34,077 bases of DNA from a virus. Below are positions 10,270-33,096 of this stretch, in pieces. Positions within the stretch are counted from its first letter, which is position 1. The number at the start of each line of letters is the position of its first letter. The translations under genes were made by a program, and so were the position numbers. The notes beneath the pieces are model-generated. The model did no database searches. It was not told the origin of the DNA and worked only from the letters and a program-made list of their open reading frames with translations. Location: positions 1-34,077 of IMG/VR virus record IMGVR_UViG_3300032278_004257. One strand, given 5' to 3'.

Positions 10270-10520
10270 GTGCGCCGCAGATCTCCGACCATGCGCTGGT
10301 GCGCTTTCTCGAACGCGTCGGCGGGATGGAAATCGAGGCGGTGCGCGATGCACTTGCCGCCTCGCTCCACCGGGCGCACCAGGCAGCGCGCACGCTGGGC
10401 CGGAACGACTTCCTGATCCGCGTGGACGGCGCGGTCTACGTCGTGCGGGGCGACGTTGTCGTCACCGTGCTCGACGACAAGGATCCGCGCGACCACGCGC
10501 ATTCGATCAGGCGCCGATGA
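10266..10520 (+). CDS. Small conserved-looking phage protein (ISDHALVRFLERV type), unknown function
   Basis: The 84-residue product begins SAPQISDHALVRFLERVGGMEIEAVRDALAASL and ends in beta-strand-like sequence (FLIRVDGAVYVVRGDVVVTVLDDKD). I have the impression that similar small proteins occur in other alphaproteobacterial phages, but I cannot name a family with certainty. The layout of helices followed by strands resembles small RelE- or DUF4258-like folds; no catalytic residues were identified. The start appears to be TTG at 10266, overlapping the previous stop as TTGA. No in-frame ATG or GTG would keep the conserved N-terminus. Confidence 0.7.
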   Translation: MSAPQISDHALVRFLERVGGMEIEAVRDALAASLHRAHQAARTLGRNDFLIRVDGAVYVVRGDVVVTVLDDKDPRDHAHSIRRR

Positions 10521-10906
10521 CGCACCGCCCCGCCTTGCTAGCCGAGATTGCCAAGGTCGCCGGCGACGACGCCGCGATCAAGGTCGCGCAGGCGCGGGGC
10601 GGAACGCGTGTCTATTTCCCGCCGAAGCCGGCCAAGGATCACTGGCTGGTCGACCTGGTCGGCCAGCAGCGCGCCGATGCGATCTGCGAGGAGCTGACGG
10701 CCGGGATCGGACCGGTGCGCGTCGACGTGCCGATCGGCACGGCGGGACAGGCGGGGCGCGGCGCACGCAAGGTGGACCGCCTGATCCGCGAGGGCAAAAG
10801 CGAACGTGACATCGCCCTGGCCACGGGCTACACCGAACGCGCCGTCCGGTGGCGCAAGCGGCGCATGAAGGACATGCGCGACACCCGACAGCAGGATCTG
10901 TTCTAA
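10517..10906 (+). CDS. Mor-type transcription activator (middle/late gene activator)
   Basis: This 129-residue protein follows the Mor/C family plan of Mu. A helical N-terminus (LLAEIAKVAGDDAAIKVAQARGGTRVYFP, about 7-35) and a second unit (DHWLVDLVGQQRADAICEELTAGIGPVRVDVP, about 41-72) form the dimerisation part. A basic helix-turn-helix follows (KVDRLIREGKSERDIALATGYTERAVRWRKRRM, about 85-117). In Mu, Mor turns on the middle promoter for C, and C turns on late genes; only one such gene is seen here, so it may do both. It ends the early/middle run and lies 16 bp before a 22-bp palindrome that recurs before the capsid gene. Confidence 0.85.
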   Translation: MTHRPALLAEIAKVAGDDAAIKVAQARGGTRVYFPPKPAKDHWLVDLVGQQRADAICEELTAGIGPVRVDVPIGTAGQAGRGARKVDRLIREGKSERDIALATGYTERAVRWRKRRMKDMRDTRQQDLF

Positions 10907-10922: not shown

Positions 10923-10944
10923 GCCCCGGAAAATTTTCCGGGGC
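10923..10944. promoter_or_regulatory. 22-bp perfect palindrome upstream of the lysis genes (copy 1 of 2)
   Basis: The core CCCCGGAAAATTTTCCGGGG (10924-10943) is a perfect palindrome extended by one G-C pair on each side. It lies between the Mor-like gene stop and the endolysin start at 10980. The same 22 bp occur at 19196-19217, before the capsid gene. No U-run follows, so an intrinsic terminator is unlikely. Its placement at two late transcription starts suggests an activator operator. With the centre near -42, transcription would begin close to the endolysin ATG, which has no ribosome binding site. Confidence 0.7.
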
Positions 10945-10979
10945 GCGGGAGGCCCTGCAGAACGGCCAGAACGGCCCGC

Positions 10980-11612
10980 ATGGACGGGTCAAAACATCAT
11001 CTCATTATTCGCGGCTCGCGTCGCTACGCACGCGCCTTCAACGAGCTGCTCGGCATCGAAGGCGGTTTCGTCGACGATCCGGTCGATCGCGGCGGTGCGA
11101 CCAAATACGGGATCTCGCTGCGCTTCCTGATTGCCGAGGGCTCGATCGACCGCGATGCCAACGGCTTCGCCGATTACGATCTCGACATGGACGGCGACAT
11201 CGACGGGCGTGACATTCGCCGCCTGACGCTCGACGATGCCTTCCGCCTCTACAAGGAATGTTTCTGGGATCGCCTCGACTGCGAGAGCTTCCCCGAGCCG
11301 GTCGGCGAGATGATGTTCGACCAGGGCGTCAATGGCGGGCTGCACGCGGCGCGGGTGCTGCTGCAGCGCGCGCTCAATCAGCTGCTGGCAGAGACCCGGC
11401 GCAATACCCTGCTGGTCGATGGCAAGGTCGGCGAGAAAACCCGGCGCGCGCTCGACACGGTCCTGCGTTGTCCGCTGCTCGGCATGACGGCGTTCGTGGA
11501 AGCCTATCGCCATGCGGTGAAGCAGCGCTATCACGCGATCGTTCGCAGCAATCCAAGCCAGCGCCGGTTCCTTAAGGGCTGGCTCAACCGTGCCGATCGG
11601 CTCGGCGCATGA
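10980..11612 (+). CDS. GH108-type peptidoglycan hydrolase (endolysin) with EF-hand-like insert
   Basis: This 210-residue protein should cleave the peptidoglycan glycan strand at lysis. The family signature is E27 in IEGGFVDDPVDRGGATKYGIS, with E27 the likely catalytic acid. The C-terminal part (FDQGVNGG through RFLKGWLNR) is the peptidoglycan-binding-like region of GH108 enzymes. Residues 57-78 interrupt the fold with two adjacent calcium-loop-like motifs; the second, DLDMDGDIDGRD, is a perfect EF-hand loop (D at 1, 3, 5, 7, 9 and 12). No signal peptide or membrane segment is seen, so a holin is needed for export. The ATG at 10980 has no ribosome binding site. Confidence 0.92.
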   Translation: MDGSKHHLIIRGSRRYARAFNELLGIEGGFVDDPVDRGGATKYGISLRFLIAEGSIDRDANGFADYDLDMDGDIDGRDIRRLTLDDAFRLYKECFWDRLDCESFPEPVGEMMFDQGVNGGLHAARVLLQRALNQLLAETRRNTLLVDGKVGEKTRRALDTVLRCPLLGMTAFVEAYRHAVKQRYHAIVRSNPSQRRFLKGWLNRADRLGA

Positions 11613-12094
11613 GCTGGCTCAAGGGAAAGATGCTCACGATCGCAGCCGGCATCGGCGGCGTGATCGTGCTCGGCCTGGTGATCGCACTCGTCGTCACCAC
11701 CGGCCAGCGTGACGCGGCGCGCGAGAGCCTGGCCAAGCTGACCGAGCAGGCCGGCGACGTGCTGGCCTCGGCGCGGATCGCAACCGGCAACCCGAAGCTC
11801 ACCTGGAGGAATACCGGCACGCAAATCACGCTGCTGGGCTCGGCGCATCGCGAGCTGAAGCTGGCGACGGCGGGGCAGAACACGGCGATCGAAGCGCTGG
11901 GCCGCGAGACCGAACTGCTGCGCGATCAGGCGCGCAGTTTCGAAGCACTCGCCCGCGAGGCGGCGGCGACGCGCATGCCCGCCATGGCCGAACTGGAGCG
12001 GGTCGTGCGCGAGCCGGTGCCTGACGCCACTTGCGAGGCGCGGTTGCGGGCGATCGCCGACGCGCTCGATCTCGCTTACGAGGCCGGGTTGTGA
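11609..12094 (+). CDS. Inner-membrane spanin, Rz-like
   Basis: The 161-residue product has one N-terminal membrane segment (about 9-30, IAAGIGGVIVLGLVIALVV) and a long periplasmic helical region with coiled-coil character (ESLAKLTEQAGDVLASARI, HRELKLATAGQNTAIEALGRETELLRDQARSFEALAREAAATR). This is the plan of Rz proteins, which pair with an outer-membrane lipoprotein to fuse the two membranes in the last lysis step. It overlaps the endolysin gene by ATGA, and the following lipoprotein gene overlaps its stop by GTGA. Confidence 0.85.
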   Translation: MSWLKGKMLTIAAGIGGVIVLGLVIALVVTTGQRDAARESLAKLTEQAGDVLASARIATGNPKLTWRNTGTQITLLGSAHRELKLATAGQNTAIEALGRETELLRDQARSFEALAREAAATRMPAMAELERVVREPVPDATCEARLRAIADALDLAYEAGL

Positions 12095-12390
12095 AGGCCG
12101 CGATTGCCCTTGCAGCGCTGGCCCTGGCGGGTTGTGCGACCACGCCGGAAACGCTGGTGCAGGAGCGCGTCGTCGAGGTGAAGGTCCCGGTGGCGACCGC
12201 CTGCGCGACCGCGCGCCCGGTCCCGACCGAGCCGCTGAAGCAGCGCTTCACGGCCGAAGAATGGGCCGCGCTGACCGAGCTTCAGAAGGCGGCGCTGGTC
12301 GCCCAGCAGGGCCTTGCGCGACAGACCGAAGCCGAAGGCGTGCGCGCGGCGACCGCCGCCTGTCCGGAACTCGACGATGAAGATCGGTAA
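12091..12390 (+). CDS. Outer-membrane spanin lipoprotein, Rz1-like
   Basis: The protein (99 residues, GTG start overlapping the Rz stop) begins with a lipoprotein signal, LALAGC, lipidated at Cys15. The mature part is short and includes VEVKVPVATACATARPVPTEPLKQRFTAEEW. It lies right after the Rz-like gene in the two-gene spanin arrangement, not embedded in it as in lambda. The mature chain is longer and less proline-rich than lambda Rz1. The frame ends in TAA at 12390, overlapping the next gene by 14 bp. Confidence 0.82.
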   Translation: MKAAIALAALALAGCATTPETLVQERVVEVKVPVATACATARPVPTEPLKQRFTAEEWAALTELQKAALVAQQGLARQTEAEGVRAATAACPELDDEDR

Positions 12391-12586
12391 CCGGATGCTC
12401 GAGCGTGCCGAACAGTTCGTCCTCGAGGACGCCCAGCGCCGGGTGTCGGCGACCCGCGCCGCGCTCGCTGCGCCGGGCACGCCCGATTGCCAAGAATGCG
12501 GCGACCCGATCGGCGCGAAGCGGCGCAAAGCGATGCCCTCAGCGCGGACCTGCATCGATTGCCAGCGCAAGATGGAGCGCAAGTGA
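12377..12586 (+). CDS. DksA/TraR-type C4 zinc-finger protein
   Basis: This 69-residue protein has an N-terminal helix and the DksA/TraR finger: C38 and C41 (CQEC), then C59 and C62 (CIDC), with DPIGAKRRKAMPSART between. TraR-family proteins bind the secondary channel of RNA polymerase and mimic DksA with ppGpp. Being as short as TraR (73 residues), it may reprogram host transcription during the lytic phase. It sits between the spanin genes and the membrane protein gene. The ATG at 12377 overlaps the spanin gene. Confidence 0.87.
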   Translation: MKIGNRMLERAEQFVLEDAQRRVSATRAALAAPGTPDCQECGDPIGAKRRKAMPSARTCIDCQRKMERK

Positions 12587-13038
12587 TGCAGATCGAGCCC
12601 GTCTCCTTCGGCAAGTTCCTCGCTGGATGGCTGCCCGCTCTGGCAGTGAGCTCGGTCGCGGACCCTGCTCCGATCGTGACTGAATGGACCGTCGACCTGG
12701 GCGGCACCGCGATACCGGTGGTGAGCGCCGCGCTGGGTGCGCTTGGCGTGCTGGCAGCACGGCCGCTCGCGGTGAAGCAGGAGGCCCCGCACGGATGGGG
12801 ACGCTTCGCACTGGTCACCGCGATCCTGCTGGTCGCGATCGAACTGTGGATCATCCAGTCGCGGCCGGGCTGGCTGTTCACCTTCGTGGTCGGGATCGGC
12901 CTCGGTTTCTCGGGATATTCGATGATCGAGCTGCTGGGCGACGGGCTGAAGGGCCTCGTCTCCTCGGCCTTCGACCAAGCCAAGACGAAAGTGGGATCGG
13001 TGCTGGGCACCAAGAAGGACGGGAACGATGACGAGTAG
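12586..13038 (+). CDS. Multi-pass membrane protein, candidate holin
   Basis: The 150-residue product has hydrophobic segments at about 9-24 (weak), 40-61, 72-91 and 95-117, and a charged C-terminal tail (FDQAKTKVGSVLGTKKDGNDDE). A small membrane protein with a charged end next to endolysin and spanin genes is the best holin candidate here, since the endolysin has no export signal. No family match is obvious, and a head- or tail-associated membrane protein cannot be excluded. The ATG overlaps the previous stop, and the gene overlaps the next by 11 bp. Confidence 0.75.
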   Translation: MQIEPVSFGKFLAGWLPALAVSSVADPAPIVTEWTVDLGGTAIPVVSAALGALGVLAARPLAVKQEAPHGWGRFALVTAILLVAIELWIIQSRPGWLFTFVVGIGLGFSGYSMIELLGDGLKGLVSSAFDQAKTKVGSVLGTKKDGNDDE

Positions 13039-13609
13039 CCTCTACGAACTGGCGTTGATCGGGGTGATCCTGGTCGGCATCGCGATCGCGGTCTGGAAGG
13101 GTGGGCAAGCCAATCCGGTCGGCACCGGCAGCCTGCAGCGGGTTGTTTCGGGCATGCGCGGCGAAGTCGACAGCATGAAGGGCCGGCTCAAGACGCTCGA
13201 TAGCACCGTCGCGACCAAGCAGGACGTGCTGCGGCTCGACGAGAAATTGGCCGAGGAAGCGAAGAAGATGGGACGGGTGTTCGAAACGCTCGACCGGGTC
13301 GACGATGAACTCGCGGCGCTGGCCCGATCGCATGGCGCGCGAAATGCGGTGATCGAGGCGTTGTCCGACAGCGTGCGCCGGCTTTCCGAAGAGCTGAAGT
13401 CGCACCAGCAACATGTCGCGGCGCGGCTTACCGAGTTGAGCTCGATCCCCGACAAAGTCGAAGCGAACAGCAAGGCGATCGAGAAGCTTTCGAGCCAGAT
13501 GCCCGCAATCCGCGAGGCGCAGCGCGAGACCGCGAGCGATGTGAAACACATCGGTCGGCAGGTCGAGCGGCTCTACGATTTCTTGATCCCGGAGGGCATG
13601 AAGAAGTGA
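13028..13609 (+). CDS. Mu gp25-like protein (DUF2730), membrane-anchored coiled coil
   Basis: This 193-residue protein has one N-terminal membrane segment (about 5-22, LYELALIGVILVGIAIAV) and a long coiled-coil body with a tail ending HIGRQVERLYDFLIPEG. The pattern, length and position match the DUF2730 family that precedes the terminase genes in Mu-like phages (gp25 in Mu). Its function is not established. It overlaps the preceding gene by 11 bp and the next by 4 bp (GTGA). Confidence 0.87.
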   Translation: MTSSLYELALIGVILVGIAIAVWKGGQANPVGTGSLQRVVSGMRGEVDSMKGRLKTLDSTVATKQDVLRLDEKLAEEAKKMGRVFETLDRVDDELAALARSHGARNAVIEALSDSVRRLSEELKSHQQHVAARLTELSSIPDKVEANSKAIEKLSSQMPAIREAQRETASDVKHIGRQVERLYDFLIPEGMKK

Positions 13610-13914
13610 GCGTACAAGCAACTTTGGCCGAGGGTATCGCGCAGGATGCGCGGCTCGAAATTTTGCGGCAGCTGGAGAAGCAGGTCGACGGGCGACTGTC
13701 CGCGACGTTGCTGCGCCGAGCGCTCGATATCTACGGCATCACGCGCGATCGCGACTGGATCGAAACGCAGCTGCGCAAGCTGGAAGCGCTCGGCGCGATC
13801 GAGATCCTTTCGATCGGCGACATGCTAGTCGCGAAGATCCAGCGGCCAGGGCTCGACCACCTTCAGGAGCGCTCGCTCCTGGTCGGCGTCACGCGCCCGC
13901 GGGACGATAGCTGA
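13606..13914 (+). CDS. Mu gp26-like winged-helix protein
   Basis: The 102-residue product begins with a GTG that overlaps the previous stop. It reads as a small winged helix (ARLEILRQLEKQVDGRLSATLLRRALDIYGITRDRDWIETQLRKLEALGAIEILSIGDMLVAKI). Mu-like phages encode such a protein between the gp25 and gp27 homologues, and it is often annotated as a helix-turn-helix regulator. Whether it regulates transcription or acts in packaging is unknown. Confidence 0.85.
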   Translation: MSVQATLAEGIAQDARLEILRQLEKQVDGRLSATLLRRALDIYGITRDRDWIETQLRKLEALGAIEILSIGDMLVAKIQRPGLDHLQERSLLVGVTRPRDDS

Positions 13915-14489
13915 TGGCCGGCCAGCGCGGACGGGGACGGCTGTCGTCGATCGATCTCCTCCCCGAGGAGGCCGACGAGGATATCCGCTGGGCGTTGGAG
14001 CAGCTCCGCGAATGCAAGCTGCCGCAGAACACCATCCTCATCGAGTTCAACGAGCGGCTTGCCGACAAGGGTATCGACCCGATCAGCAAGAGCGCCTGGG
14101 GCCGCTACTCGGTGCGCAAGGCCAAGCAATTCCGCCGCCTCGACGACGTGCAGCGGATCTCGTCGGAGCTGGTCGGATCGCTCGGCACCGAGCACAGCGA
14201 CGAGGTGACGATCGCCGTGGCCGAGATGGTCAAGATGGCGGCGTTCCACGCGCTTGAAGGCGACGACGCGAAACCGAAGGACATCCTCGAACTCAGTCGC
14301 GCGTTGCAGGCCGCGGTCAGCGCCCAGCGCGGGTCGGCCGAGTATCGCAAACAGCTCGAGCAGCGCATCGCGCAGGAAGTCGCGCGGGCGGCCGACGTTG
14401 CGGAAACCATCGCCGCCGAGGCCGGCCTCGGTCCCGATCGCATTGCGCAGATGCGGCGCGAGTTCCTGGGCATCAAGGTCGATCAGTGA
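13914..14489 (+). CDS. Mu gp27-like protein (DUF3486), probable small terminase
   Basis: This 191-residue protein has the DUF3486 pattern: basic start GQRGRGRLSSIDLLPEEADEDIRWALEQL, then LIEFNERLADKGIDPISKSAWGRYSVR. The latter is a helix-turn-helix-like element, and a helical C-terminus follows. In Mu-like phages this gene precedes the large terminase and is taken to be the small subunit that recognises the packaging start. The ATG shares a base with the previous stop, and the terminase ATG shares one with its own stop. Confidence 0.92.
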   Translation: MAGQRGRGRLSSIDLLPEEADEDIRWALEQLRECKLPQNTILIEFNERLADKGIDPISKSAWGRYSVRKAKQFRRLDDVQRISSELVGSLGTEHSDEVTIAVAEMVKMAAFHALEGDDAKPKDILELSRALQAAVSAQRGSAEYRKQLEQRIAQEVARAADVAETIAAEAGLGPDRIAQMRREFLGIKVDQ

Positions 14490-16105
14490 TGGTCGAGCTC
14501 GACGAACTCCCGACCGCCGACCAGGCACCGCCGAAGTCGCCGGTCGACGAGCTGGTGATGGGCGACGTGCCGCCCGAGGGGTTCGACCCTTTGGCGGACG
14601 GGATCCTGATGGCACACCAGAAGGAATGGCTGGCCGACCAGTCGGACCTGAAGCTGTGCGAGAAAGGTCGGCGCACCGGGATCACCTTCGCCGAGGCGCT
14701 CGACACGACGCTGATCGGCGCGGCCGCCAAATCGGCGGGCGGGATGAACACCTATTACATCGGCGACACGAAGGACAAAGGGCTGGAGTTCATTGCCGTC
14801 TGCGCGCGCTTCGCCAAAGCCGTGGCGAAGGAGCTGCTGTCGGTCGACGAGTTCCTGTTCGACGACGTGCAGCCGGACGGCTCGACCCGGCAGATCGCAG
14901 CCTATCGCATCCGCTTCGCCTCCGGGAACGAGATCGTCGCACTGTCGAGCAACCCTGCGAACATCCGCGGCCTGCAGGGGCGCGTGGTGATCGACGAGGC
15001 GGCATTCCATCGCAATGTCGCCGCGGTGATCGATGCGTGCAACGCGATGCTGATCTGGGGCGGGACGATCCGGATCATCTCGACGCACAACGGCAACCTC
15101 AATCCGTTCAACGAGCTGATCTCGGAGACGCGCCAGGGCCAGTTCGACTATTCGATCCACACGGTCACGTTCGACGACGCGGTCGAGAACGGGCTGTACG
15201 AGCGCGTCTGCCTGATGCGGGGCTGGGAACCGACCGCCGAGGGCAAGCGCGAATGGTATCGCAAGATCCGCCGCGCCTATGGCAGCCGCGTCGAGGCGAT
15301 GCGCGAAGAGCTCGATGCAATTCCGCGCGAGGGCGAAGGCGTGCTGCTGCCGCTGGCTTGGATCGAGGCCTGCAGCGAGCAGCGCTACACGGTCGCGCGT
15401 TGGGAACCTCCCTATGAGGGCTTCGTGCGATCGAGCGAGGCGGCGCGGCGCGGGGAGATGGACGGCTGGCTGCATCGCGAGGTGCTGCCGGTGCTGCAGC
15501 GCTACGCCGATGAAGGTCACACCTGGTTCCTCGGCGGCGACTTCGCGATGCGGCAGGACCGGAGCTCCTATCCGATCGGCTTCGTCGACGACGGATTGAA
15601 GCGGCACGTGCCGCTGATCCTCGAAATGAAGCAGTGCCCCTATGACCAGCAGAAGCAGGCGCTGTTCTGGCTGATCGATCGGCTCGAAACCATGGGCGGG
15701 TTCGCGGCCGGCATCCTCGACGCGAACGGCAACGGCATGGCGCTCGCCCAGGAAGCCGCCCAGCGCTACGGCGATCGCATCACCGAGCTGATGCCGTCCG
15801 ATGCCTGGCGACGCGAGACCGGGCCGCGCTTTCGCGCCTCGTTCGAGGACGGGACGATCGCGATCCCGGCCGACAAGGACACGCGCGACGATCTGCGCCA
15901 GCTGCAGAGCGTGGGCGGCGTCGCCAAGATGCCGACCCATATCCGCAACGAAGGCAGCGACGGCACGAAACGTCACGGCGACAACGCGGTGGCGCTGTGG
16001 AACTTCCACGCCGCGACGATGCAGGATCCCGGCTTGCCCTGGCGACCGATGAACGCGGCGACCTCTCAGCAGCGCGACCCCGATGAAGATTGGATCCCGG
16101 CATGA
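14489..16105 (+). CDS. Large terminase, Mu gp28-like
   Basis: The 538-residue protein drives DNA packaging into the prohead and cuts the concatenated or integrated DNA. The ATPase part has a variant Walker A at about 58-66 (EKGRRTGIT), without the usual GKS/T, and Walker B RVVIDEA at 165-171. The RNase H-like nuclease part has candidate catalytic acids D351 (LGGDFAMRQD), D411 (GILDANGNG) and D498 (RHGDNAVALW). Length and motifs match Mu gp28 homologues, which package by headful and carry some flanking host DNA. It starts at 14489, one base before the small-subunit gene's end. Confidence 0.95.
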   Translation: MVELDELPTADQAPPKSPVDELVMGDVPPEGFDPLADGILMAHQKEWLADQSDLKLCEKGRRTGITFAEALDTTLIGAAAKSAGGMNTYYIGDTKDKGLEFIAVCARFAKAVAKELLSVDEFLFDDVQPDGSTRQIAAYRIRFASGNEIVALSSNPANIRGLQGRVVIDEAAFHRNVAAVIDACNAMLIWGGTIRIISTHNGNLNPFNELISETRQGQFDYSIHTVTFDDAVENGLYERVCLMRGWEPTAEGKREWYRKIRRAYGSRVEAMREELDAIPREGEGVLLPLAWIEACSEQRYTVARWEPPYEGFVRSSEAARRGEMDGWLHREVLPVLQRYADEGHTWFLGGDFAMRQDRSSYPIGFVDDGLKRHVPLILEMKQCPYDQQKQALFWLIDRLETMGGFAAGILDANGNGMALAQEAAQRYGDRITELMPSDAWRRETGPRFRASFEDGTIAIPADKDTRDDLRQLQSVGGVAKMPTHIRNEGSDGTKRHGDNAVALWNFHAATMQDPGLPWRPMNAATSQQRDPDEDWIPA

Positions 16106-18243
16106 ACTTCCTCACCAAGGCCCGCAATGCGATCGCGGCGTTCCGGCACGGCGGCTCGCCGCTGGCGATGACGCAGCTGATGCGGCGGACGCAGTTCGAC
16201 TATGCGCGCGAGGTCGGCGACGGGCTCGACGCGTCGGTCATCACCGCCCCGGTCCAGTGGCTGCAGCGATCGCTGCCCGAAGCGCGGCTGAAGGTCGAGA
16301 AAACCAAGCGCGACAGTTCGACCGAGGAACAGCGCACGCATCCGATGACGGCGCTGATCAGGCGGCCGAACCCGCATTACGGCGACATCGCGCTGTGGGC
16401 CGGGACGGTCCTGTCCTATTGCCTCGACGGCAACGCCTACTGGTACAAGGTTCGCAGTCGGGCCGGCAGCGTCGTCGAGCTGTGGTGGATCCCGAACTGG
16501 ATGATCGAGCCCAAGTACCCGGTCGACGGGTCCGAATTCATCTCGCACTATCGCTACGCGCCGGGCAACGGGGCCGCGCCGATCGCGATCGACCCGGCCG
16601 ACATCGTCCACTTCCGCCACGGGATCGATCCGCACAATACCCGCAAGGGCCTGTCGCCGCTGCGCGGCGTTCTGCGCGAGGTCTTCATCGATCTCGAAAG
16701 CAGCAATTTCTCGGCCGCGCTGCTCAAGAATTACGGCGCGCCGGGCGTGGTGATCAGCCCGAAGAGCGGCGTCGTGGCGGTGGGCGACGACGTGAAGGCG
16801 ACCGAGAGCTGGTTCCGCCAGAAATACTCGGGCGACGGGCGCGGCCTGCCGCTGGTGATGGGCGGGCCGACCGACGTGCAGGCGTTCGGTTTCAACCCGC
16901 AGCAGATGGAAACGGGCGGCGCGCGCGACGTGGCCGAAGAGCGTGTCTGCGCCTGCCTGGGCGTGCCGGCCGCGGTGGTCGGTTTCGGCGCGGGGCTCCA
17001 GGCGACCAAGGTTGGTGCGACCATGACCGAGATGCGCAAGCTCGCCTGGACCAATGGCGTGCTGCCGCTGGCACGATCGCTGGCCGACGAGATCAACCGC
17101 TCGCTCCTGCCCGAATGGGGCGATGCGCGCATGCTCGAGGCGGTGTGGGACACCGACGAGGTGCTCGCGCTGCAGGAGGACGAAGACCAAAAGACCGAAC
17201 GCTGGGGCAAGCGGCTCGCCAGCGGCGGCATCACCGTGTTTGAGTACCGCACCGCGCTCGGGATGAAGGCCGACGACAGCCACCGGTTCTATCTTCGCCC
17301 GATCGCGGCGATCGAGGTGCCGGAAGATGCTCCGATCGGAGACGGTCGCGAGGGCGGCGAGCCCGAGTCGACGAAGGGCACGAAGGCCAAGGGCGACGAG
17401 GACGACGAGGCGAGCCCTGACTACGTGCCGCCCGGTCCGCGGGCGAGCCGTGAAGCATATGAGCGTGGCGAGCGGTTCGCGCTGTTGCTGCGCCGGAAGG
17501 AGCGCGGGCAGATCAAGCGCTTCGGCAATGTGCTCGGCGGGCTGTTCGCCAAGTGGTCGGCCGAAACCAAAGACGCCGCCGAGAAGGCCTTGGCGGGCGC
17601 AGACCTGCCCGACGCCGGAAAAGCCAAGGGCGACGGTGCCGATGATCTTGGGGGCGATGCGGCGCTGAAGAAACTGGCCGAACGGGTGCTCAAGGCGCTG
17701 GCGATCGATATCTGGCGCGAGGAGCTGGTGAAGGCGTTCGAGGCGCAGTTCCTCAAGGTGGCCGAGGAGGTCGCCGAAGCGGGCGAGCTCGCCGGCATCG
17801 GCACCAACCTGCCCGATCCGGTGGCGCGCGCGATCGTTGGCACCGGGGGCACGCGGGTGGGCCTGATCGATCTCGACAAGCAAACCCGCGACGCGGTGTT
17901 CAGCGCGCTCGCCGAAGCGCGATCGCTGGGCGAAGGCGTGGACCAGATGGCGGCGCGGATCGCGGCCGACGTGGGCAGCGGCCCGTGGGAGGATACGCTG
18001 ACCCGCGCGCGGATGATCGCGCGTACCGAGACCAAGTTCGCGCAGAACATATCGACGATCCAGAAGGCGGCCGATGCCGGGGTCGAAAAGCTGATCGTGT
18101 TCGACGGCCGCTTCGGGCCGCCGCGATCGGAGGACACGCATATCGCGCGCGACGGCAAGATCGTGGACGCGGCGACCGCCGCGACCATGGCCGCGAACAT
18201 GCGGCCGAACTGCACGCTCAGCTTCGCCCCCTATTTTGAATGA
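16102..18243 (+). CDS. HK97-type portal protein fused to a MuF-like head-morphogenesis domain
   Basis: Residues about 20-420 of this 713-residue protein follow the HK97 portal family (LMRRTQFDYAREVGDG, ELWWIPNWMIEPKY, DIVHFRHGIDPHNTRKGLSPLRG, and a clip/crown region ending KRLASGGITVFEYR). A charged linker follows at about 410-450. The C-terminal 250 residues read as the minor capsid MuF / SPP1 gp7 family (RARMIARTETKFAQNISTIQKAADAGVEKLIVFDGRFG through MRPNCTLSFAPY). These are normally two genes in tandem. Mu itself has a different portal family (gp29), so this marks a head-module exchange. The ATG at 16102 overlaps the terminase stop. Confidence 0.9.
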   Translation: MNFLTKARNAIAAFRHGGSPLAMTQLMRRTQFDYAREVGDGLDASVITAPVQWLQRSLPEARLKVEKTKRDSSTEEQRTHPMTALIRRPNPHYGDIALWAGTVLSYCLDGNAYWYKVRSRAGSVVELWWIPNWMIEPKYPVDGSEFISHYRYAPGNGAAPIAIDPADIVHFRHGIDPHNTRKGLSPLRGVLREVFIDLESSNFSAALLKNYGAPGVVISPKSGVVAVGDDVKATESWFRQKYSGDGRGLPLVMGGPTDVQAFGFNPQQMETGGARDVAEERVCACLGVPAAVVGFGAGLQATKVGATMTEMRKLAWTNGVLPLARSLADEINRSLLPEWGDARMLEAVWDTDEVLALQEDEDQKTERWGKRLASGGITVFEYRTALGMKADDSHRFYLRPIAAIEVPEDAPIGDGREGGEPESTKGTKAKGDEDDEASPDYVPPGPRASREAYERGERFALLLRRKERGQIKRFGNVLGGLFAKWSAETKDAAEKALAGADLPDAGKAKGDGADDLGGDAALKKLAERVLKALAIDIWREELVKAFEAQFLKVAEEVAEAGELAGIGTNLPDPVARAIVGTGGTRVGLIDLDKQTRDAVFSALAEARSLGEGVDQMAARIAADVGSGPWEDTLTRARMIARTETKFAQNISTIQKAADAGVEKLIVFDGRFGPPRSEDTHIARDGKIVDAATAATMAANMRPNCTLSFAPYFE

Positions 18244-18254
18244 GGAACGGGACC

Positions 18255-18980
18255 ATGCAGACCAAGAATATGACGATCGAAGAGATGGACGAAGCGGGCA
18301 AGGGCCTCGCCCGGCTCGCGATCCTGTCCGAAGTCGATCACGACGGCGACACCTACAAGGCCGGGGCCTTCAGCTGGAAGGAAGGCGGCGACCAGTGGGC
18401 ACCGATCCTGCCGGCGCACAACCGCTCGAAGATGCCGTTCGGCAAGGCCCGCGTGTTCGAGCGCGACGGGGCGGCCTTCGCCGAGCTCAACATCAATCTC
18501 GGCACGCAGGTCGGCAAGGATTGGCATTCGGCGCTGAAGTTCGACCTCGACACCGGCAAGCCCGTTCAGGAATGGTCCTACGGCTACGACGCGCTCGAGG
18601 CCGAGCAGGACTACCAGAGCGGGCGCGGCGCGAAGCGCGTGCTGACCAAGGTCGACGTGTCCGAGGTGAGCACCGTGATCCGCGGGGCCGGCATCGGCAC
18701 CGGCACGCTGTCGATGAAGGCGGCGAAGGATACCGGCGAGCTGAAGGCGGCGCATTTCGAGCGCCTGCTCGGAGATCTCGGCGCGCTGGCCGACGCGCTC
18801 GAGACCGACCCGTCGATCGCCAGTGCGACCGGCATCAAGCAGCTGACGCAGATCCATGGCGAGCTGGGCGATGCCCTGGCCGAGATTGCGAGCGCGGATC
18901 CGTCAGCGATGAATGCGGCCGGGCAGAAAGCGCTGTTCGACTATCTCAGCGGCATGGCGGCGAAGCATCTGCGAGCGTAG
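18255..18980 (+). CDS. HK97-family prohead protease
   Basis: The product (241 residues from 18255) is the maturation protease that trims capsid and scaffold inside the prohead. Key features are the beta-strand start GLARLAILSEVDHDGDTYKAGAF, the likely catalytic His55 in LPAHNRSK, and a serine (about 139) in VSEVSTVIRG. The C-terminal helical part could act as a scaffold. Two starts are possible: ATG at 18240 overlaps the portal stop, and ATG at 18255 has GAGGA 8 bases upstream; I prefer 18255. The gene is followed by about 300 bp without genes. Confidence 0.92.
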   Translation: MQTKNMTIEEMDEAGKGLARLAILSEVDHDGDTYKAGAFSWKEGGDQWAPILPAHNRSKMPFGKARVFERDGAAFAELNINLGTQVGKDWHSALKFDLDTGKPVQEWSYGYDALEAEQDYQSGRGAKRVLTKVDVSEVSTVIRGAGIGTGTLSMKAAKDTGELKAAHFERLLGDLGALADALETDPSIASATGIKQLTQIHGELGDALAEIASADPSAMNAAGQKALFDYLSGMAAKHLRA

Positions 18981-19027
18981 GATGCTACCGGCCTGAAATG
19001 GCCACAGGAGCGATTTGAGGGCGGTTG

Positions 19028-19054
19028 GGGCGGATTGGTGCGTCCGAGCCGCCC
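19028..19054 (+). terminator. Terminator-like hairpin after the prohead protease
   Basis: GGGCGGATTGG (19028-19038) pairs with CCGAGCCGCCC (19044-19054) around a TGCGT loop, giving an 11-position stem with one mismatch and one G-U pair. Downstream is GATTGCGTTCTTT, only weakly U-rich. It lies 48 bases after the protease stop and would separate the packaging transcript from the capsid transcript. Confidence 0.45.
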
Positions 19055-19194
19055 GATTGCGTTCTTTGCCCCTCTTAAATCGATCCTAGAGCCTTCCGGA
19101 CGGTTTCCCTGACCCGCGATCGGCGACGATCGCTTGCGTTTGCCTGCCGGTCGCGCGATACAGCACCCGATCCCGACATCGCCGCAATCTTTCC

Positions 19195-19218
19195 CGCCCC
19201 GGAAAATTTTCCGGGGCG
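19195..19218. promoter_or_regulatory. 24-bp perfect palindrome upstream of the capsid gene (copy 2 of 2), with possible promoter
   Basis: The 20-bp core CCCCGGAAAATTTTCCGGGG (19197-19216) is identical to the one at 10924-10943. Here two more pairs on each side match, making 24 bp. The capsid ATG is 65 bp downstream with its own ribosome binding site (GGGAG). CATAAG at 19240-19245 could be the -10 element; transcription would start near 19252, placing the palindrome centre at about -45, a common activator position. The first copy lies just after the Mor-like activator gene. Confidence 0.7.
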
Positions 19219-19283
19219 CAGAGCGTCGTCCCGCACCCGCATAAGGCCCTCGATATCACGGCCAACATGACGGGAGCCAGCAG

Positions 19284-20615
19284 ATGAAGATCAAGGATAT
19301 GAACCTGGAACAGGCGAAGGCTCGCCTTGCGACGGTCCAGGAAACCATGGGCAACGTGCTCGAGGAAGCCGAGACCGATGGCAACAGCTACGATTTCAGC
19401 CAGGTCAAGTGCCTCGGCGACGACGTGAAGGGCCAGTCGGCTATCACCGCGAAGTTCCGCGAGCTCAACGACGAAGCCACCGACCTCGCCAAGCATATCG
19501 AGGACCTGTCCGAGACCGACCAGGCGGTGAAGGACTACAAGGGGCGCGAGCGCGGCGTCACCCGCCTCCCGTTCGGCTCGCCCGCTGGCGGCGCACACGG
19601 CGGCGACCCGTCCGTGATGCAGCAGATCAAGGCGCTGGGTCGCCAGGTGATCGAGAGCAAGGCGTTCAAGGACTGGGCCGACAACGGCAGCAGCGACGGC
19701 GTCCGCATCGAGGCCGAAAGCTCTTATCCGTCCGACGTGATGGCCAAGGGCGCGTCGACCGAGACGGTCGGCACCAAGGCGGTGATGAGCACCGGGGCCG
19801 GCTTCGCGCCCGAAAGCCTGCGCATCGGTCGCCTGGTCGAAGCGGTCACCCGCCCGATCCAGCTGCTCGACATCATTCCGATGGGTCGCACCAGCATGGC
19901 TGCGATCAAGTACATGGAAGAAACGACCCGCACGCACGCCGCTGCCGAGGTGGCCGAGGGTGCGGCCTATCCTGAAAGCACGTTCGTGTTCACCGAGCGG
20001 ACCGCCACGGTCCAGAAGGTGGCGGACAGCGTGCCGGTGACCGACGAGCAGCTGGAAGACGTGCCGCTGATCGAAAGCTACCTCAATGGCCGTCTCAGCT
20101 TCGGCCTGCGCCAGCGGGTCGATGCGCAGTCGGTCGCGGGCGATGGCACTGCCGGCACCCTGACCGGCATCCTCAACACGGCCGGCATCCAGACCCACGC
20201 CAAGGGCGCCGACACCGTGATCGATGCCACCTTCAAGGCGATGACCAAGGTCCGCACGGTCGGCCGCGCGATCCCGACGCACGTCATCTACAACCCGGCC
20301 GACTGGGAGCGCATCCGCCTCTCGAAGGATGCCGACGGCAACTATCTGTACGGGCCGCCCAGCCAGACCGGCGAGGCGCGCATCTTCGGCCTGCCGGTGG
20401 TGCAGAACGAAGTCGTGCCCGAGGGGACGGCGATCGTCGGCGCGTTCGAGGCGGCTTACATCTCGATCTACGAGCGCAAGGGCATCGACGTGCAGGTGGG
20501 CTTCCGTGGCGACCAGTTCGTCGAGGGCAAGCGCACGATCCGCGCCGATATGCGCCTCGCGCTGATCATCTTCCGCCCGGCCGCCTTCTGCGAAGTGACC
20601 GGCCTCAACCTCTGA
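19284..20615 (+). CDS. HK97-fold major capsid protein
   Basis: This 443-residue protein has the HK97 gp5 layout. The N-terminal delta/scaffold region is helical and coiled (about 1-90, LEQAKARLATVQETMGNVLEEAE). A low-complexity linker (FGSPAGGAHGGDP) near residue 95-108 is a likely maturation-cleavage zone, and the capsid fold follows (STETVGTKAVMSTGAGFAPESLR through IFRPAAFCEVTGL). LLDIIPMGRTSMAAIKYMEET and VQKVADSVPVTDEQLED are typical of the family. It would be cut by the protease encoded just upstream. Mu's own capsid is different at the sequence level. It is followed by two strong hairpins. Confidence 0.96.
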   Translation: MKIKDMNLEQAKARLATVQETMGNVLEEAETDGNSYDFSQVKCLGDDVKGQSAITAKFRELNDEATDLAKHIEDLSETDQAVKDYKGRERGVTRLPFGSPAGGAHGGDPSVMQQIKALGRQVIESKAFKDWADNGSSDGVRIEAESSYPSDVMAKGASTETVGTKAVMSTGAGFAPESLRIGRLVEAVTRPIQLLDIIPMGRTSMAAIKYMEETTRTHAAAEVAEGAAYPESTFVFTERTATVQKVADSVPVTDEQLEDVPLIESYLNGRLSFGLRQRVDAQSVAGDGTAGTLTGILNTAGIQTHAKGADTVIDATFKAMTKVRTVGRAIPTHVIYNPADWERIRLSKDADGNYLYGPPSQTGEARIFGLPVVQNEVVPEGTAIVGAFEAAYISIYERKGIDVQVGFRGDQFVEGKRTIRADMRLALIIFRPAAFCEVTGLNL

Positions 20616-28702: not shown

Positions 28703-29114
28703 GCGCGATCTCGACGCCCTCACGGCGCTGCTGGCCGAACGGCTGACAAAGCCGTTCCGCTGGTCAGGCCGCGGGTGCTGTATCGGCCTCGGCTCGCGGG
28801 CGGTGGAAGCGCAGATCGGGATCGATCCCCGGTTCGGCCTGTCCTGGTCGACCAAGGCCGAAGCGCTCGCCGTGCTCGCGGCCGAAGGCGGGATCGAGGC
28901 GGCGATGGATGCGCGGTTCGACCGGATCGCCCCGGCATTGGCACCGCGTGGCGATCTGGCCGCGGTCCCCTGCGACGAACTCGGTTGCCGGATCATGGTG
29001 ATCGAGGGCGCGACCCTGGCCGCACCCGGCGCGCGGCGGCTCGAACGGCTCCCGCGCAGCGCAATGACGATCGCCTGGAACATCCTGACCGTGCGCGAGC
29101 CCGATCATGGGTAG
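28692..29114 (+). CDS. DUF6950-like tail protein, related to NlpC/P60-type tail components
   Basis: This 140-residue protein reads like the DUF6950 pattern: DLDALTALLAERLTKPFRWSGRGCCIGLGSRAVEAQIGIDPRFG, then AVLAAEGGIEAAMDARF and GDLAAVPCDELGCRIMVIEGATL. The family appears between tail hub and tip genes, like the NlpC/P60 protein K of lambda, and is thought to be a degraded or specialised cell-wall hydrolase. The usual DC is CC here (C29 and C30). It overlaps both neighbours by 8 to 11 bp. Confidence 0.75.
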   Translation: MPIERDLDALTALLAERLTKPFRWSGRGCCIGLGSRAVEAQIGIDPRFGLSWSTKAEALAVLAAEGGIEAAMDARFDRIAPALAPRGDLAAVPCDELGCRIMVIEGATLAAPGARRLERLPRSAMTIAWNILTVREPDHG

Positions 29115-32100
29115 AGTGGTCAAGGGCATTATCGGGATCGGCGCGGCGGTTGTCGGCGTCGTCACCGGGAACTGGCTCCTGGTCGCCCAGGGCGCGGCGC
29201 TGGTCGGCAGCGCGCTGATCCAGCCCGGCGAGCAGGCCGAGGCGCGCGAGCGCAATGCATCGAGCAGCCAGATCCAGCTCGGAGAAGTTCCCCGCGAGGC
29301 GGTGGTCGGCCGCGCGGCCGTGACCGGCAGCCTGGTCGACGGGTTCAACTATGGCGGCGAGCACGGCACCGACTGGGAAGTGCTGATCCTCGATCTGGCC
29401 GATCACCGCAGCGATGCGTTGGAAGGCTTCTTCGTCAACGACACCTATGTGCCCTTCGCGGGTGACGGCATGGTCGCCGGCTACAACAACCAGCTGCAGG
29501 TCTATTTCCGTGACGGGCAATGGGACCAGGCGCTGCCGGCGATCGTCACCGCCAACGGGCCGGGCTGGACCGCGAACGATCGCGGGCGCGGGATCACCTA
29601 TGTCGTCGTCGCCTACAAGGCGGACGATCAGGAGGCCGAGAACCCGGTCTGGACCGCTGGGCGTCCGCGCTTCCGCTGGGTTCTGCGCGGCCTCAAATGC
29701 TACCAGGCGCGCAAGGATGCCAGCGTGGGCGGCAGCGGCGCGCATGACTGGGCCGATCCGGCGACGCGTGAATGGACCGACAACCCGATCGACTGCCGCT
29801 ACAACTGGGCTCGCGGGATCTACCTCGGCGACAGGGTCGACGATCCGAACGCGCTTGTCGTCGGGCGCGGGCTGACCACGGTCGAGGCCCCTCCTGCCAA
29901 CGTCTTTGCGCGCGCCAATCTGTGCGACGAGCTGGTCGACGGCGAGAAGCGCTACCGCGTCGGCGGCGCGATCCGATCGACCGAACGCTATCTCGATGTC
30001 GAAAGCGATTTCGCCGCGGCGTGCGCCGGCACGATCGTGCAGCCCGAAGGCGCGGTCGAGATTGATCCGGGCGCGGCGCGAGCGCCGGTCGCGCATATCA
30101 CCGATGCCGACCTGGTCGACGGGACCAAGGTGATCTTCGCGCGCCGCCTGTCGATCAATGACGATGGCTGGATCAACACCGTGTTCGCGCGTTTCGTCTC
30201 TCCCGAGCAGGGCTGGACCGGGCACACCGCGCCGGTCCGGCGCGTGCTGGCCGACGTGGTCGCCGATGGCGGGCCGCGCGAGGCCGGGCCGACCCTGAGC
30301 TTCGTGCAGTGGGTCAAGCAGGCGGGGCGCATCGCCGAGATCATCCGCGCGCTCGGCCGGCTCTGGGGCCGCGCCTCGATCACGCTGCCGCCCGAGTTCT
30401 GCGAGCTCGAGGAAGGCGACTGGGTCACGTGGCAGTCCGATCGCTACGCCAAGGGCGCGACGATCACGTTCCAGATCGAGGCCTGGGGATCGGACAAGGC
30501 GTGGCGGCACCACGTGAAGCTGCGCGAGATCGAGGCGGGCGCGTTCGGCGGTGCCGTGCTCGAGGACGATGGTGCGGTCGCCAATCAACCCGGTCCGCCC
30601 GCTGCGATGCTGCCGCCCGGCATCGGAACCTGGACCGCCGATGCGGGCTATCTCGCATCTGGCGACATGAAGCTTCCGGCGCTTGTCCTCGAAGGCGCGG
30701 CCGATGATAGCCGAGCCCAGCTCGTGCGGGTCGAATATGTTCAGCAGGCGGCGGCACCGGATGCCGGAACGAGCTGGACCGATGCGGGCGCGATCAGCCC
30801 TCGCGCGACCAAGCGGGAGATACCGGCTGCGCCGGGGGCGACCTACTATCTCGGCGTCTCCTACCTGGTCGACGGCGTGCCGGGTCCGCGTCGTGTGCTC
30901 GGTCCGGTGACGGCCGGACCTCTGCGTTATTCCGACGACACCCTGGTCGATGCAGTGAAGCCGGCCGAACCGGGTGCGCAGGCAAATCCGGCCGATCTCG
31001 CCGAGCTTGATCCCACGGCCAACACCAAGCTCGGCGGGATCGCTGCGGGGGCGACGGTCGGCGCGACGTGGGGAGACAACGTCTTCGGTCGCCCGGCCGA
31101 ACTGATCGACGGCAGGGTCGCGGCCGGTCTCAGCCAAAGCGGCGACGTACTGCGCAACCTGCCGTCGACGATCAAGAACCTGATCAACGTCGATCAGATC
31201 AGCGATGGATCCACCTATCGCCGCTATCCGCTGGTCGACAAGACCAAGCTCGGCACGATCGAACAGTTCGCCAGCCCATCCGACAGCTTCGTCGCAAACC
31301 CGCAGTTCGAGAATGCCGGAGAGCATTGGTCGCTTTCCGGGGCATATTACGTGAGCACCGACGCGAACGTTCCCGGCAAGTTCTTCCTGCGGATGACAGG
31401 CGATCCAGATACCACGCGGGCCTTCGCAAATGGGGCCTCGCCAACCAAGATCGCGGGCAACCGCGCCTATTTCAGCATGTATGTGCGGATGGGCAACATC
31501 TCCGACTATCTCTTGGTCTTCGCCCGGGTCCGAGACAGCGCCGGAGCCGCCTTTAGCTACCCGACGGCCGTCTGTGCCCAGACCGGAACGACACTGTGGC
31601 GCACGAGCATCGCGGGACCGTTCCAGCTGCTCACCGGTTACATCGATCTTCCGGCAGGGGCCGCGACCGCTGACTTCTACCTGCAGTTCGGCCCCGGCAT
31701 GGCGAGCTATTGCGATGTCACGAATGTCCGTGCCACGCAGTCCGAGCTTAACTCGACCAAGGGCGCAGTCGCCGGAGACAACCTGCGGAAGAGCAACGGC
31801 ACCATTGCTACCGATGCCGATATCTCGGTGCCCACGCTGAACCAGGACGGCACGATGACGATCGTGACGCCGTCCGGGCCGATCAATCAAGGCGCGATCG
31901 CGCTCGACTGGGTACCCGAGGGCGTGACCAACAAGTTCCTGCTCGCAAGCGAGCGAAGCAAGCTCGGAGGGGTCGAGGCGAATGCCACGGTCGGCGCTCC
32001 GGCCGGAACGAATGTCGGCGGGACCGAAGCTTCGGCAGTGGCGGCCGGCGCGGGCCGCGCGAATGTCGGCCTGAGCGCAACCGGCGATGTCGCTCGGGAA

Positions 32101-33096
32101 GTGCCGTTCGCGCAGATCCCATCGGGCGCGCGCAACAGCGAGCTGACCGCCTCGATCACCGCAGCTGGAGAAACGGCGCAGTGGAGCCAGACCTCCGGCC
32201 GACCGACGAACCTCAGCGAGCTGGACAGCGCCAGGGCGACCAAGCTCGACGGCGTGCAGGCCGGTGCGCAGGTCAACCCTGCGGATCTGGCTGCGCTCGA
32301 TGCGACTGCCAGCAACAAGCTCGCCGGGATCGAGGCGAATGCCGACGTGACCGCCAATGCTCAGATCACCTTCACCGACGTGACGCCTTACACCATCCAG
32401 GCGGACAGCGCGGGGGCGACCACCACCGGAATGCCGGTGGCGAAGGTTATCAACGTCTATCGCGGTAACGGGCAGGTGACCTCGGGCGTTTCGGTTGGCG
32501 CGGTGACCACATCTCCTTCCGGGGCGATTACCGCCACAGCTTCGCAGTCTGGCGGCGTCGTGACCGTATCCCTCACCAAGGCAGATGCGGCCGGCAGCAT
32601 TACCATCCCGATCACCGTTGCCGGCATCACGTACAGCAAGACGATCACGGTCAACCGCACGCTGGCCGCGCCGGTCTCTGGCGGAGGATCCGGCAGTGTC
32701 AGCTTCACCGACCAGCAGTGGGAGAACGTCAATTCGACCACCGCGGTTCAGGTGACCGACGCGGGCGCGATCGTGCGGTCCGATGCCTCCGGCCAGATCG
32801 AGTTCTCGGCCTCGGCCATGTACGACGGGTCCGGAGCCGCGACGATCGTGGCCGAATATCGTCCAGCGGCGGGCGGGGCATGGTCGACGGCATTCTCGGC
32901 CACTGGCTCGGTCGCCGTCGCCGAGGATCCGGGGCCGCCCGCGGTCTTCGGCGAGGCGGGCTTCGTCGGTGGAAGCGCGACAAAGACCGGCCTGACCGCC
33001 GACGCGGATTACGAGGTCCGCCTGACCGGGCGACGGGCCAGCGGTTCCGGTACCCTGAGTTGGGCCAGCCCCAGCTTCACGGCAAAACAGCCGTGA
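29107..33096 (+). CDS. Tail tip / host-recognition protein (J-like) with C-terminal fibre repeats
   Basis: This 1329-residue protein is the largest in the window. The N-terminus has a hydrophobic stretch (GIIGIGAAVVGVVTGNWLLVAQGAALVGSAL). Residues about 50-520 look like the hub part of J-like proteins (REAVVGRAAVTGSLVDGFNYGG, GRITYVVVAYKADDQEA, FCELEEGDWVTWQSDRYAKGA), followed by fibronectin-like strands near 520-620. From about 626 it carries repeats of the type KLGGI(A/E)AGATV with NPADLAELD (about 626-655, 950-965, 1040-1080), separated by a lectin-like segment at about 730-880. The end is a beta-sandwich-like domain. It should contact the host surface, and the repeat region is where variation is expected. 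Confidence 0.9.
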   Translation: MGRVVKGIIGIGAAVVGVVTGNWLLVAQGAALVGSALIQPGEQAEARERNASSSQIQLGEVPREAVVGRAAVTGSLVDGFNYGGEHGTDWEVLILDLADHRSDALEGFFVNDTYVPFAGDGMVAGYNNQLQVYFRDGQWDQALPAIVTANGPGWTANDRGRGITYVVVAYKADDQEAENPVWTAGRPRFRWVLRGLKCYQARKDASVGGSGAHDWADPATREWTDNPIDCRYNWARGIYLGDRVDDPNALVVGRGLTTVEAPPANVFARANLCDELVDGEKRYRVGGAIRSTERYLDVESDFAAACAGTIVQPEGAVEIDPGAARAPVAHITDADLVDGTKVIFARRLSINDDGWINTVFARFVSPEQGWTGHTAPVRRVLADVVADGGPREAGPTLSFVQWVKQAGRIAEIIRALGRLWGRASITLPPEFCELEEGDWVTWQSDRYAKGATITFQIEAWGSDKAWRHHVKLREIEAGAFGGAVLEDDGAVANQPGPPAAMLPPGIGTWTADAGYLASGDMKLPALVLEGAADDSRAQLVRVEYVQQAAAPDAGTSWTDAGAISPRATKREIPAAPGATYYLGVSYLVDGVPGPRRVLGPVTAGPLRYSDDTLVDAVKPAEPGAQANPADLAELDPTANTKLGGIAAGATVGATWGDNVFGRPAELIDGRVAAGLSQSGDVLRNLPSTIKNLINVDQISDGSTYRRYPLVDKTKLGTIEQFASPSDSFVANPQFENAGEHWSLSGAYYVSTDANVPGKFFLRMTGDPDTTRAFANGASPTKIAGNRAYFSMYVRMGNISDYLLVFARVRDSAGAAFSYPTAVCAQTGTTLWRTSIAGPFQLLTGYIDLPAGAATADFYLQFGPGMASYCDVTNVRATQSELNSTKGAVAGDNLRKSNGTIATDADISVPTLNQDGTMTIVTPSGPINQGAIALDWVPEGVTNKFLLASERSKLGGVEANATVGAPAGTNVGGTEASAVAAGAGRANVGLSATGDVAREVPFAQIPSGARNSELTASITAAGETAQWSQTSGRPTNLSELDSARATKLDGVQAGAQVNPADLAALDATASNKLAGIEANADVTANAQITFTDVTPYTIQADSAGATTTGMPVAKVINVYRGNGQVTSGVSVGAVTTSPSGAITATASQSGGVVTVSLTKADAAGSITIPITVAGITYSKTITVNRTLAAPVSGGGSGSVSFTDQQWENVNSTTAVQVTDAGAIVRSDASGQIEFSASAMYDGSGAATIVAEYRPAAGGAWSTAFSATGSVAVAEDPGPPAVFGEAGFVGGSATKTGLTADADYEVRLTGRRASGSGTLSWASPSFTAKQP

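Follow-up and report, generated by a model that had tools for sequence, protein, structure and literature searches.

Palindromes before the lysis and capsid genes of a Mu-like phage as probable operators of its Mor-family activator

Introduction

Why would a Mu-like phage carry one and the same perfect palindrome ahead of its lysis genes and again ahead of its capsid gene, and can the protein that reads it be named? The locus that raises the question lies in the IMG/VR virus record IMGVR_UViG_3300032278_004257, of which positions 1 to 34,077 were analysed (hereafter the window); it encodes MuA, MuB, GemA, a late-activator-like protein, a GH108 endolysin, a portal, an S78 protease and an HK97 capsid. 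An earlier note, made from this DNA alone, had proposed that the palindrome is a late operator for the phage's Mor-like activator. Our comparison with related phages lends support to that proposal through the position and orientation of the sites, their spacing to a -10-like block, their co-variation with the activator's recognition helix and their non-host status, and we are highly confident that the palindromes serve as operators of the phage's Mor-family activator before the lysis and capsid genes. The same protein ends in a motif of the type that binds bacterial sliding clamps.

Results

Two identical palindromes ahead of the lysis and capsid genes

The palindrome GCCCCGGAAAATTTTCCGGGGC occurs exactly twice in the window, at 10923-10944 and 19196-19217, where no occurrence is expected. 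No further copy of the 22-mer at up to three mismatches was found in the window, nor in 100 dinucleotide-preserving shuffles. The two identical copies of the earlier note are exact, as is its description of them as perfectly palindromic, with the second extending to 24 base pairs (bp; 19195-19218). Copy 1 was likewise correctly placed behind the Mor-like gene: it begins 16 nucleotides (nt) after the stop of that gene (10906) and 57 nt ahead of the endolysin ATG (10980), while copy 2, at 88 nt ahead of the capsid ATG (19284), falls within the 303 nt that separate the protease gene from the capsid gene. A weight-matrix scan built from the relatives described below returned just these two window sites at about 28 bits, with a runner-up of 7.0 bits at 32506, and revealed no third operator in the window.

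A conserved, oriented element in related phages

Relatives were collected via the capsid protein, which yielded 80 capsid relatives; the activator itself (P0001), tried as a direct search query, returned only helix-turn-helix look-alikes (L004-L009). In 35 of the 80, as well as in the window, the capsid-side motif precedes the capsid ATG by 83-126 nt, uniformly in one orientation. Lysis-side copies adjoin the endolysin gene and precede the capsid gene by 7-8.9 kb, and some relatives possess a third copy in a tail-region operon, 5.4-7.7 kb downstream of the capsid start. All 65 distinct sites align in one orientation to CCGGA[C/A]nnnn[G/T]TCCGGGGCG, with TCCGGGGCG common to every one of them; two apparent chance matches (L031 at +3458 and L050) were dropped from later counts. 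The relatives' own repeated palindromes occupy the same places with other sequences (GCCCCGGAACGCGTTCCGGGGC, GCCCCTGAACGCGTTCAGGGGC, GCCCCGGACATGTGTCCGGGGC and others). Judged by this alignment, the palindrome of the window is one copy-set of an element conserved in Mu-like phages of Sphingomonadales. Since the endolysins behind the lysis-side sites belong to two different families, phrog_7 or phrog_315, the comparison also indicates that the site is conserved for itself and is no by-product of gene conservation. The dyad is unevenly kept, its outer 5' half drifting and its 3' half invariant, such that position 1 is C in 27 of the 65 sites and its partner always G.

What accompanies the capsid and endolysin genes of these related Mu-like phages is a variable motif. 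An exact 20-mer search of IMG/VR misses this family because spacer and flanks vary, and its sole match was to an unrelated phage (L003).

Promoter architecture

Across the 65-site alignment, a -10-like block (CATAxx, CAATAC, CCACAT, CATCCA or CAGAAC) follows at an offset of 43-49 from the motif start. Of 21 lysis sites, 18 have an ATG at offset 55-58, and of ten tail sites, five have one at exactly 57; none of the 32 capsid sites has an ATG there. Given this spacing of ATG and -10 block at the lysis and tail sites, the natural reading is that transcription would start (+1) at about offset 57, with the dyad centred near -46, and that the lysis and tail transcripts would be leaderless.

The activator and its match to the operator

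P0001 matches the late transcriptional activator family phrog_836 (1.2e-19), as do Mu Mor and C, and all 23 of its aligned relatives match Pfam Mor (PF08765) at E<1, the best at 3.5e-8. Its gene belongs to a MuA/MuB phage and is flanked by GemA on one side and the lysis genes on the other. The structural model of P0001 (mean predicted local distance difference test score 81) has a C-terminal helix-turn-helix formed by helices 96-103 and 107-128, and weak helix-turn-helix profile matches were also obtained. Because it is the only Mor homologue found in the window, its presence suggests a single activator instead of the Mor-then-C cascade of Mu.

Recognition helix and operator were compared in 30 phages with a readable pair (L049, L057, L047, L050, L110 and L112 were left out for an unclear operator pair). 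In all 30, the identity of residue 112 accords with the operator: Arg occurs with GACnnnnGTC, and Lys, Trp (window), Leu, Met or Asn with GAAnnnnTTC (Fisher test 1e-8, phages treated as independent). Residue 111, like residue 112, falls where the predicted recognition helix begins; it is Arg in phages whose operators have CCGGA flanks, but His, Trp or Tyr where the flanks are CTGA (L015, L105, L108 and L109). On a tree built without the helix, operator class changes nine times with residue 112 agreeing at each tip, and three independent pairs on well-supported branches are all concordant. In the close relatives L014 and L045 operator class and residue 112 differ together. As the operator letters co-vary with the Mor-like recognition helix, the binder can be named from sequence, and is almost surely the Mor-family protein encoded at 10517-10906.

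Several observations weigh against this assignment. P0001 taken alone scores 14.9 bits, short of the 24.9 bits that Pfam Mor requires, and a fold search of its model against the PDB gave no match at E<0.001, with the Mu C complex 9l0x at rank 24. The three well-supported pairs are too few by themselves (sign test p 0.25). Lastly, both the Trp112 of the window activator and the AATT at the centre of the window operator are unique among the relatives.

Other readings of the palindrome

Perfect GC-rich palindromes are, as general knowledge has it, typical of parS-like and host regulator sites, and the earlier note had kept a host-factor or partition-type site as an alternative. We reject this alternative, whose probability we consider practically negligible. 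In the lysogen G003, with 3.7 Mb, all three occurrences of the motif fall within the prophage, and symmetric copies in G005 and G009 are likewise clustered in the prophage. In the 14 genomes looked at in this way, a prophage origin was traced for part of the matches, and several asymmetric ones elsewhere look like chance. The pattern is present in 26 of 299 genomes of the host order, with a reversed control about as frequent; the palindrome, whose wide occurrence in the host chromosome would have spoken against a phage operator, is therefore not widespread there. Moreover, the copies invariably precede operons. A dyad can also be a repressor site, and a position near -46 would permit interference, so that the sites might be bound by the phage repressor (the S24/helix-turn-helix protein at 1872-2540) or another phage regulator that silences the late genes of the prophage. 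This we regard as extremely improbable, given that the operator letters follow the Mor-like recognition helix through eight to nine changes on the tree and that such repressors usually act at the early promoter as well, while the motif is absent from the early region of the window.

The palindromes could alternatively be intrinsic terminators, that is RNA hairpins ending the early operon and the protease operon, as each is a perfect GC-rich inverted repeat and copy 1 follows a stop codon by only 16 nt. The identical 20-bp palindrome at L003:2965-2984 does have a terminator-like A/T-rich setting; this copy lies behind a gene end in an unrelated A/T-rich phage, with TTAA and TTTAAAA flanks, and looks like a terminator hairpin that arose by convergence. 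In the window, by contrast, neither copy is followed by a T run and both are absent from the list of a terminator scan. Across relatives the stem is not kept as a stem, its 3' half being invariant and its outer 5' half drifting, and the spacing to the -10 block and ATG is nearly fixed. We rejected the terminator reading on the negative scan and the non-conservation of the stem, and consider it very improbable. A search for an RNA element gave no Rfam match, and no tRNA was found.

A clamp-type motif at the C-terminus of the activator

The window activator ends RQQDLF, and its relatives end QLSLF, QLDLF, QGDLF, QMSLF, QMSLL, QLPLL and similar. The pattern Q..[LMF][FLI] is present in the last 15 residues of 43 of 49 distinct relatives, compared with 73 of 11,676 other open reading frames (0.6%) and 1.2% of shuffled tails; it is absent from homologues of 18 other window genes, bar one stray each in GemA and one unknown family. 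Gln125 is invariant in 23 close relatives, and the linker that precedes it is variable. Ends of this kind are also seen in Mu-like phages of Vibrio, Pasteurella, Shewanella, Pseudoalteromonas, Pseudomonas, Sinorhizobium and Ochrobactrum, and in Mu itself, where Mor ends QPSLL and C carries QPDLF near its end. The activator of Microcystis phage Mwe-Yong1 has QLKLPL, a hexapeptide that we take to be a known form of the clamp motif, as in Hda. The bacterial clamp-binding consensus has been described as QL(S/D)LF at the C-terminus (PMC9690074) and as QLxLF (PMC4549789). From this likeness we think it rather likely that the activator tail binds the host beta sliding clamp.

When Pfam Mor proteins were sampled more broadly across Pseudomonadota, 8 of 30 had the motif by regular expression. 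Most of those with a tail that extends beyond the helix-turn-helix show either the motif or the hexapeptide form, and a second group stops straight after the helix-turn-helix, without the motif. Proteins of this second class (L207-L231), which are often present in several copies per genome, may not be transposable-phage activators. Two further observations concern the DLF core. The activators of L188, L067 and L110 end EPDLF, with the motif kept and the Gln lost, and the N-termini of Mu Mor and C (L091:82-99 and L091:1264-1281) also begin with a DLF motif (MTEDLF and MQHDLF), which may be a second clamp-like or RNA-polymerase-contacting motif.

Clamp binding also has points that tell against it. 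The window motif, QQDLF, fits Q-x-D-L-F but does not have the Leu that comes second in the QL[S/D]LF consensus, and some members of the activator family are without the tail motif. Furthermore, Mor activates transcription in vitro in RNA polymerase assays (PMC4287176), which makes a strict need for the clamp in Mu unlikely. It is also conceivable that the conserved tail contacts RNA polymerase and not the sliding clamp, since Mor and C act by contacting the polymerase (PMC4287176, PMC4461284) and the tail could be their activation patch. We judge this unlikely. The tail sequences are of the clamp-ligand type (QLSLF, QLDLF, QMSLL), and the pentapeptide and hexapeptide (QLKLPL) forms both occur, while the linker before the motif differs between proteins both in its length and in its sequence, as it does in T4 gp55 (PMC2988020). 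In addition, the Mu C chain in 9l0x counts 105 of 140 residues in a structure-library count, suggesting disordered ends.

Features of the window

The features that bear on the predicted late promoters are collected in Table 1. Elsewhere in the window, positions 1-1038 read as an apparent host gene, putatively cysteine synthase-like, and the left prophage end is therefore probably just past 1038. Repeat units of 23-28 nt (CAAGCTCGG.GGGATCGAGGCGAATGCC) at 31020-32343, within a long open frame at 29107-33096, are possibly a tail-fibre repeat.

Table 1. Features of the putative late regulatory system, with positions in the window
Feature	Position	Strand	Remarks
Mor-family late transcription activator P0001	10517..10906	+	129 aa; phrog_836; predicted binder of both operators
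Recognition-helix start, ERAVRWRKRRM	10835..10867	+	residues 107-117; R111 and W112 predicted base-reading residues
Beta-clamp-binding-type motif, QQDLF	10889..10903	+	activator residues 125-129; C-terminal
Operator copy 1, Plys-like lysis-gene promoter	10923..10944	+	GCCCCGGAAAATTTTCCGGGGC; 3' half TCCGGGGC faces promoter
Predicted lysis-promoter -10, CAGAAC	10967..10972	+	offset 44 from operator start; placed by conserved column block
Endolysin gene (GH108 + PG_binding_3)	10980..11612	+	ATG is predicted +1 (leaderless mRNA)
Prohead protease (S78)	18240..18980	+	last gene between operator copies 1 and 2
Operator copy 2, PI-like capsid-gene promoter	19195..19218	+	24-bp perfect palindrome
Predicted capsid-promoter -10, CATAAG	19240..19245	+	offset 44 from operator start; predicted as for the lysis promoter
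HK97-type major capsid protein	19284..20615	+	predicted leader of about 31 nt; GGGAG Shine-Dalgarno-like stretch at 19272-19276

Discussion

The conservation, orientation and spacing of the sites, the co-variation of operator and helix and the conserved tail motif can be read directly in the sequences compared here. DNA binding, activation, the start points, clamp binding and replication coupling are what we infer from sequence, and we postulate the following scheme. The activator, probably the last product of the early operon, would bind the palindromes as a dimer some 46 bp ahead of the start point, standing in for a -35 element, and would recruit host RNA polymerase to two late promoters. 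The first would start at the endolysin ATG and extend into the genes for lysis, packaging and protease; the second would start just ahead of the capsid gene. In relatives there would be a third, tail-region promoter. The tail of the activator would probably dock on the host replication clamp, which would make late transcription dependent on ongoing phage replication. Activation would then be strongest on replicating phage DNA, with the clamp acting as an enhancer or coupling device and being no absolute requirement.

Whether the tail has a role in replication coupling we consider evenly balanced. The broader proposal, that Mor and C dock on the host beta clamp via a C-terminal QxxLF and so couple late transcription (in Mu also middle transcription) to replication in Mu-like phages, could in our estimation equally well hold or fail. 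Marrs and Howe reportedly found in 1990 that Mu late transcription is dependent on DNA replication. Expression of the Mu late genes follows the start of replication (PMC4461284).

The Mu-type late promoter system is known; what is new here is the strongly dyadic operator and the single activator. We found no paper linking Mor or C with the sliding clamp in the open literature, a scope that leaves out most subscription journals, including any papers accompanying the Mu C and Mor structures 9l0x, 9vw8 and 9l0y. Our analysis defines a late-regulon signal for a broad group of alphaproteobacterial Mu-like phages, and provides a code, readable in two activator residues, that links activator with operator and makes late promoters and their regulators predictable. 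If this code is true, the targets of an activator could be read from sequence via its recognition helix and operator. The clamp-type tail, shared with Mu Mor and C, would offer a concrete way in which transposing phages could delay late genes until replication.

Comparison with known systems

Among the capsid relatives, Sinorhizobium phage StopSmel and similar phages share the gene order of the window, an annotated Mor regulator preceding the lysozyme, and the StopSmel activator ends RQMDLFPA. It differs in the dyads before its capsid gene (CAGCCCGCGCAGACGCGGGCTG, with a CGCA-type dyad further upstream) and in its type of recognition helix, and it belongs with L029, L041, L043, L055 and L061 to a divergent group in which candidate operators were seen. 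Other dyads precede the capsid gene in capsid relatives with another activator type (L199:11870-11945; L021, L025, L026, L029, L036, L041, L043, L055 and L061), namely CATCCACGCnnnnGCGTGGATG-like near -140 and CAGCCCGCGCnnACGCGGGCTG-like near -85.

A close parallel is Mu, where Plys, PI and PP (Pmom) are activated by C, and Pm by Mor, with a Mor-family activator in common with the window. The two systems also share a dyad upstream of the -10 in promoters without a -35, and sites before the lysis and head genes and, in the relatives here, before a tail-region operon, an arrangement like that of Plys, PI and PP. The Mor site at Mu Pm is centred at -43.5 (PMC4390567), compared with about -46 here. 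In contrast to Mu, the operator here is longer, a more perfect dyad and unrelated in sequence, in agreement with the earlier note, which had called it unlike that of Mu. There is one activator rather than two, the lysis (and tail) genes are predicted to be leaderless, and the capsid promoter lies between protease and capsid.

Insertion sequence (IS) transposases share a C-terminal QLxLF-type motif in proteins of transposing elements, and beta binding was shown for them (PMC4549789). There, however, the motif is on the transposase, whereas here it is on the late activator and MuA is without it. T4 late transcription (gp55/gp33 with the clamp gp45) likewise has a transcription factor with a C-terminal clamp-binding-type epitope and a variable linker (PMC2988020), and the tail described here would also couple late transcription to replication. 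Phage sigma (gp55), co-activator (gp33) and phage clamp gave no match in general scans of the window genes, in which gp55 and gp33 were not specifically searched. Unlike T4, the system here would employ a sequence-specific DNA-binding activator, host RNA polymerase and, as we read the tail, the host bacterial beta clamp. If true, it would be a DNA-bound-activator counterpart of the T4 gp45 system that works via the bacterial clamp.

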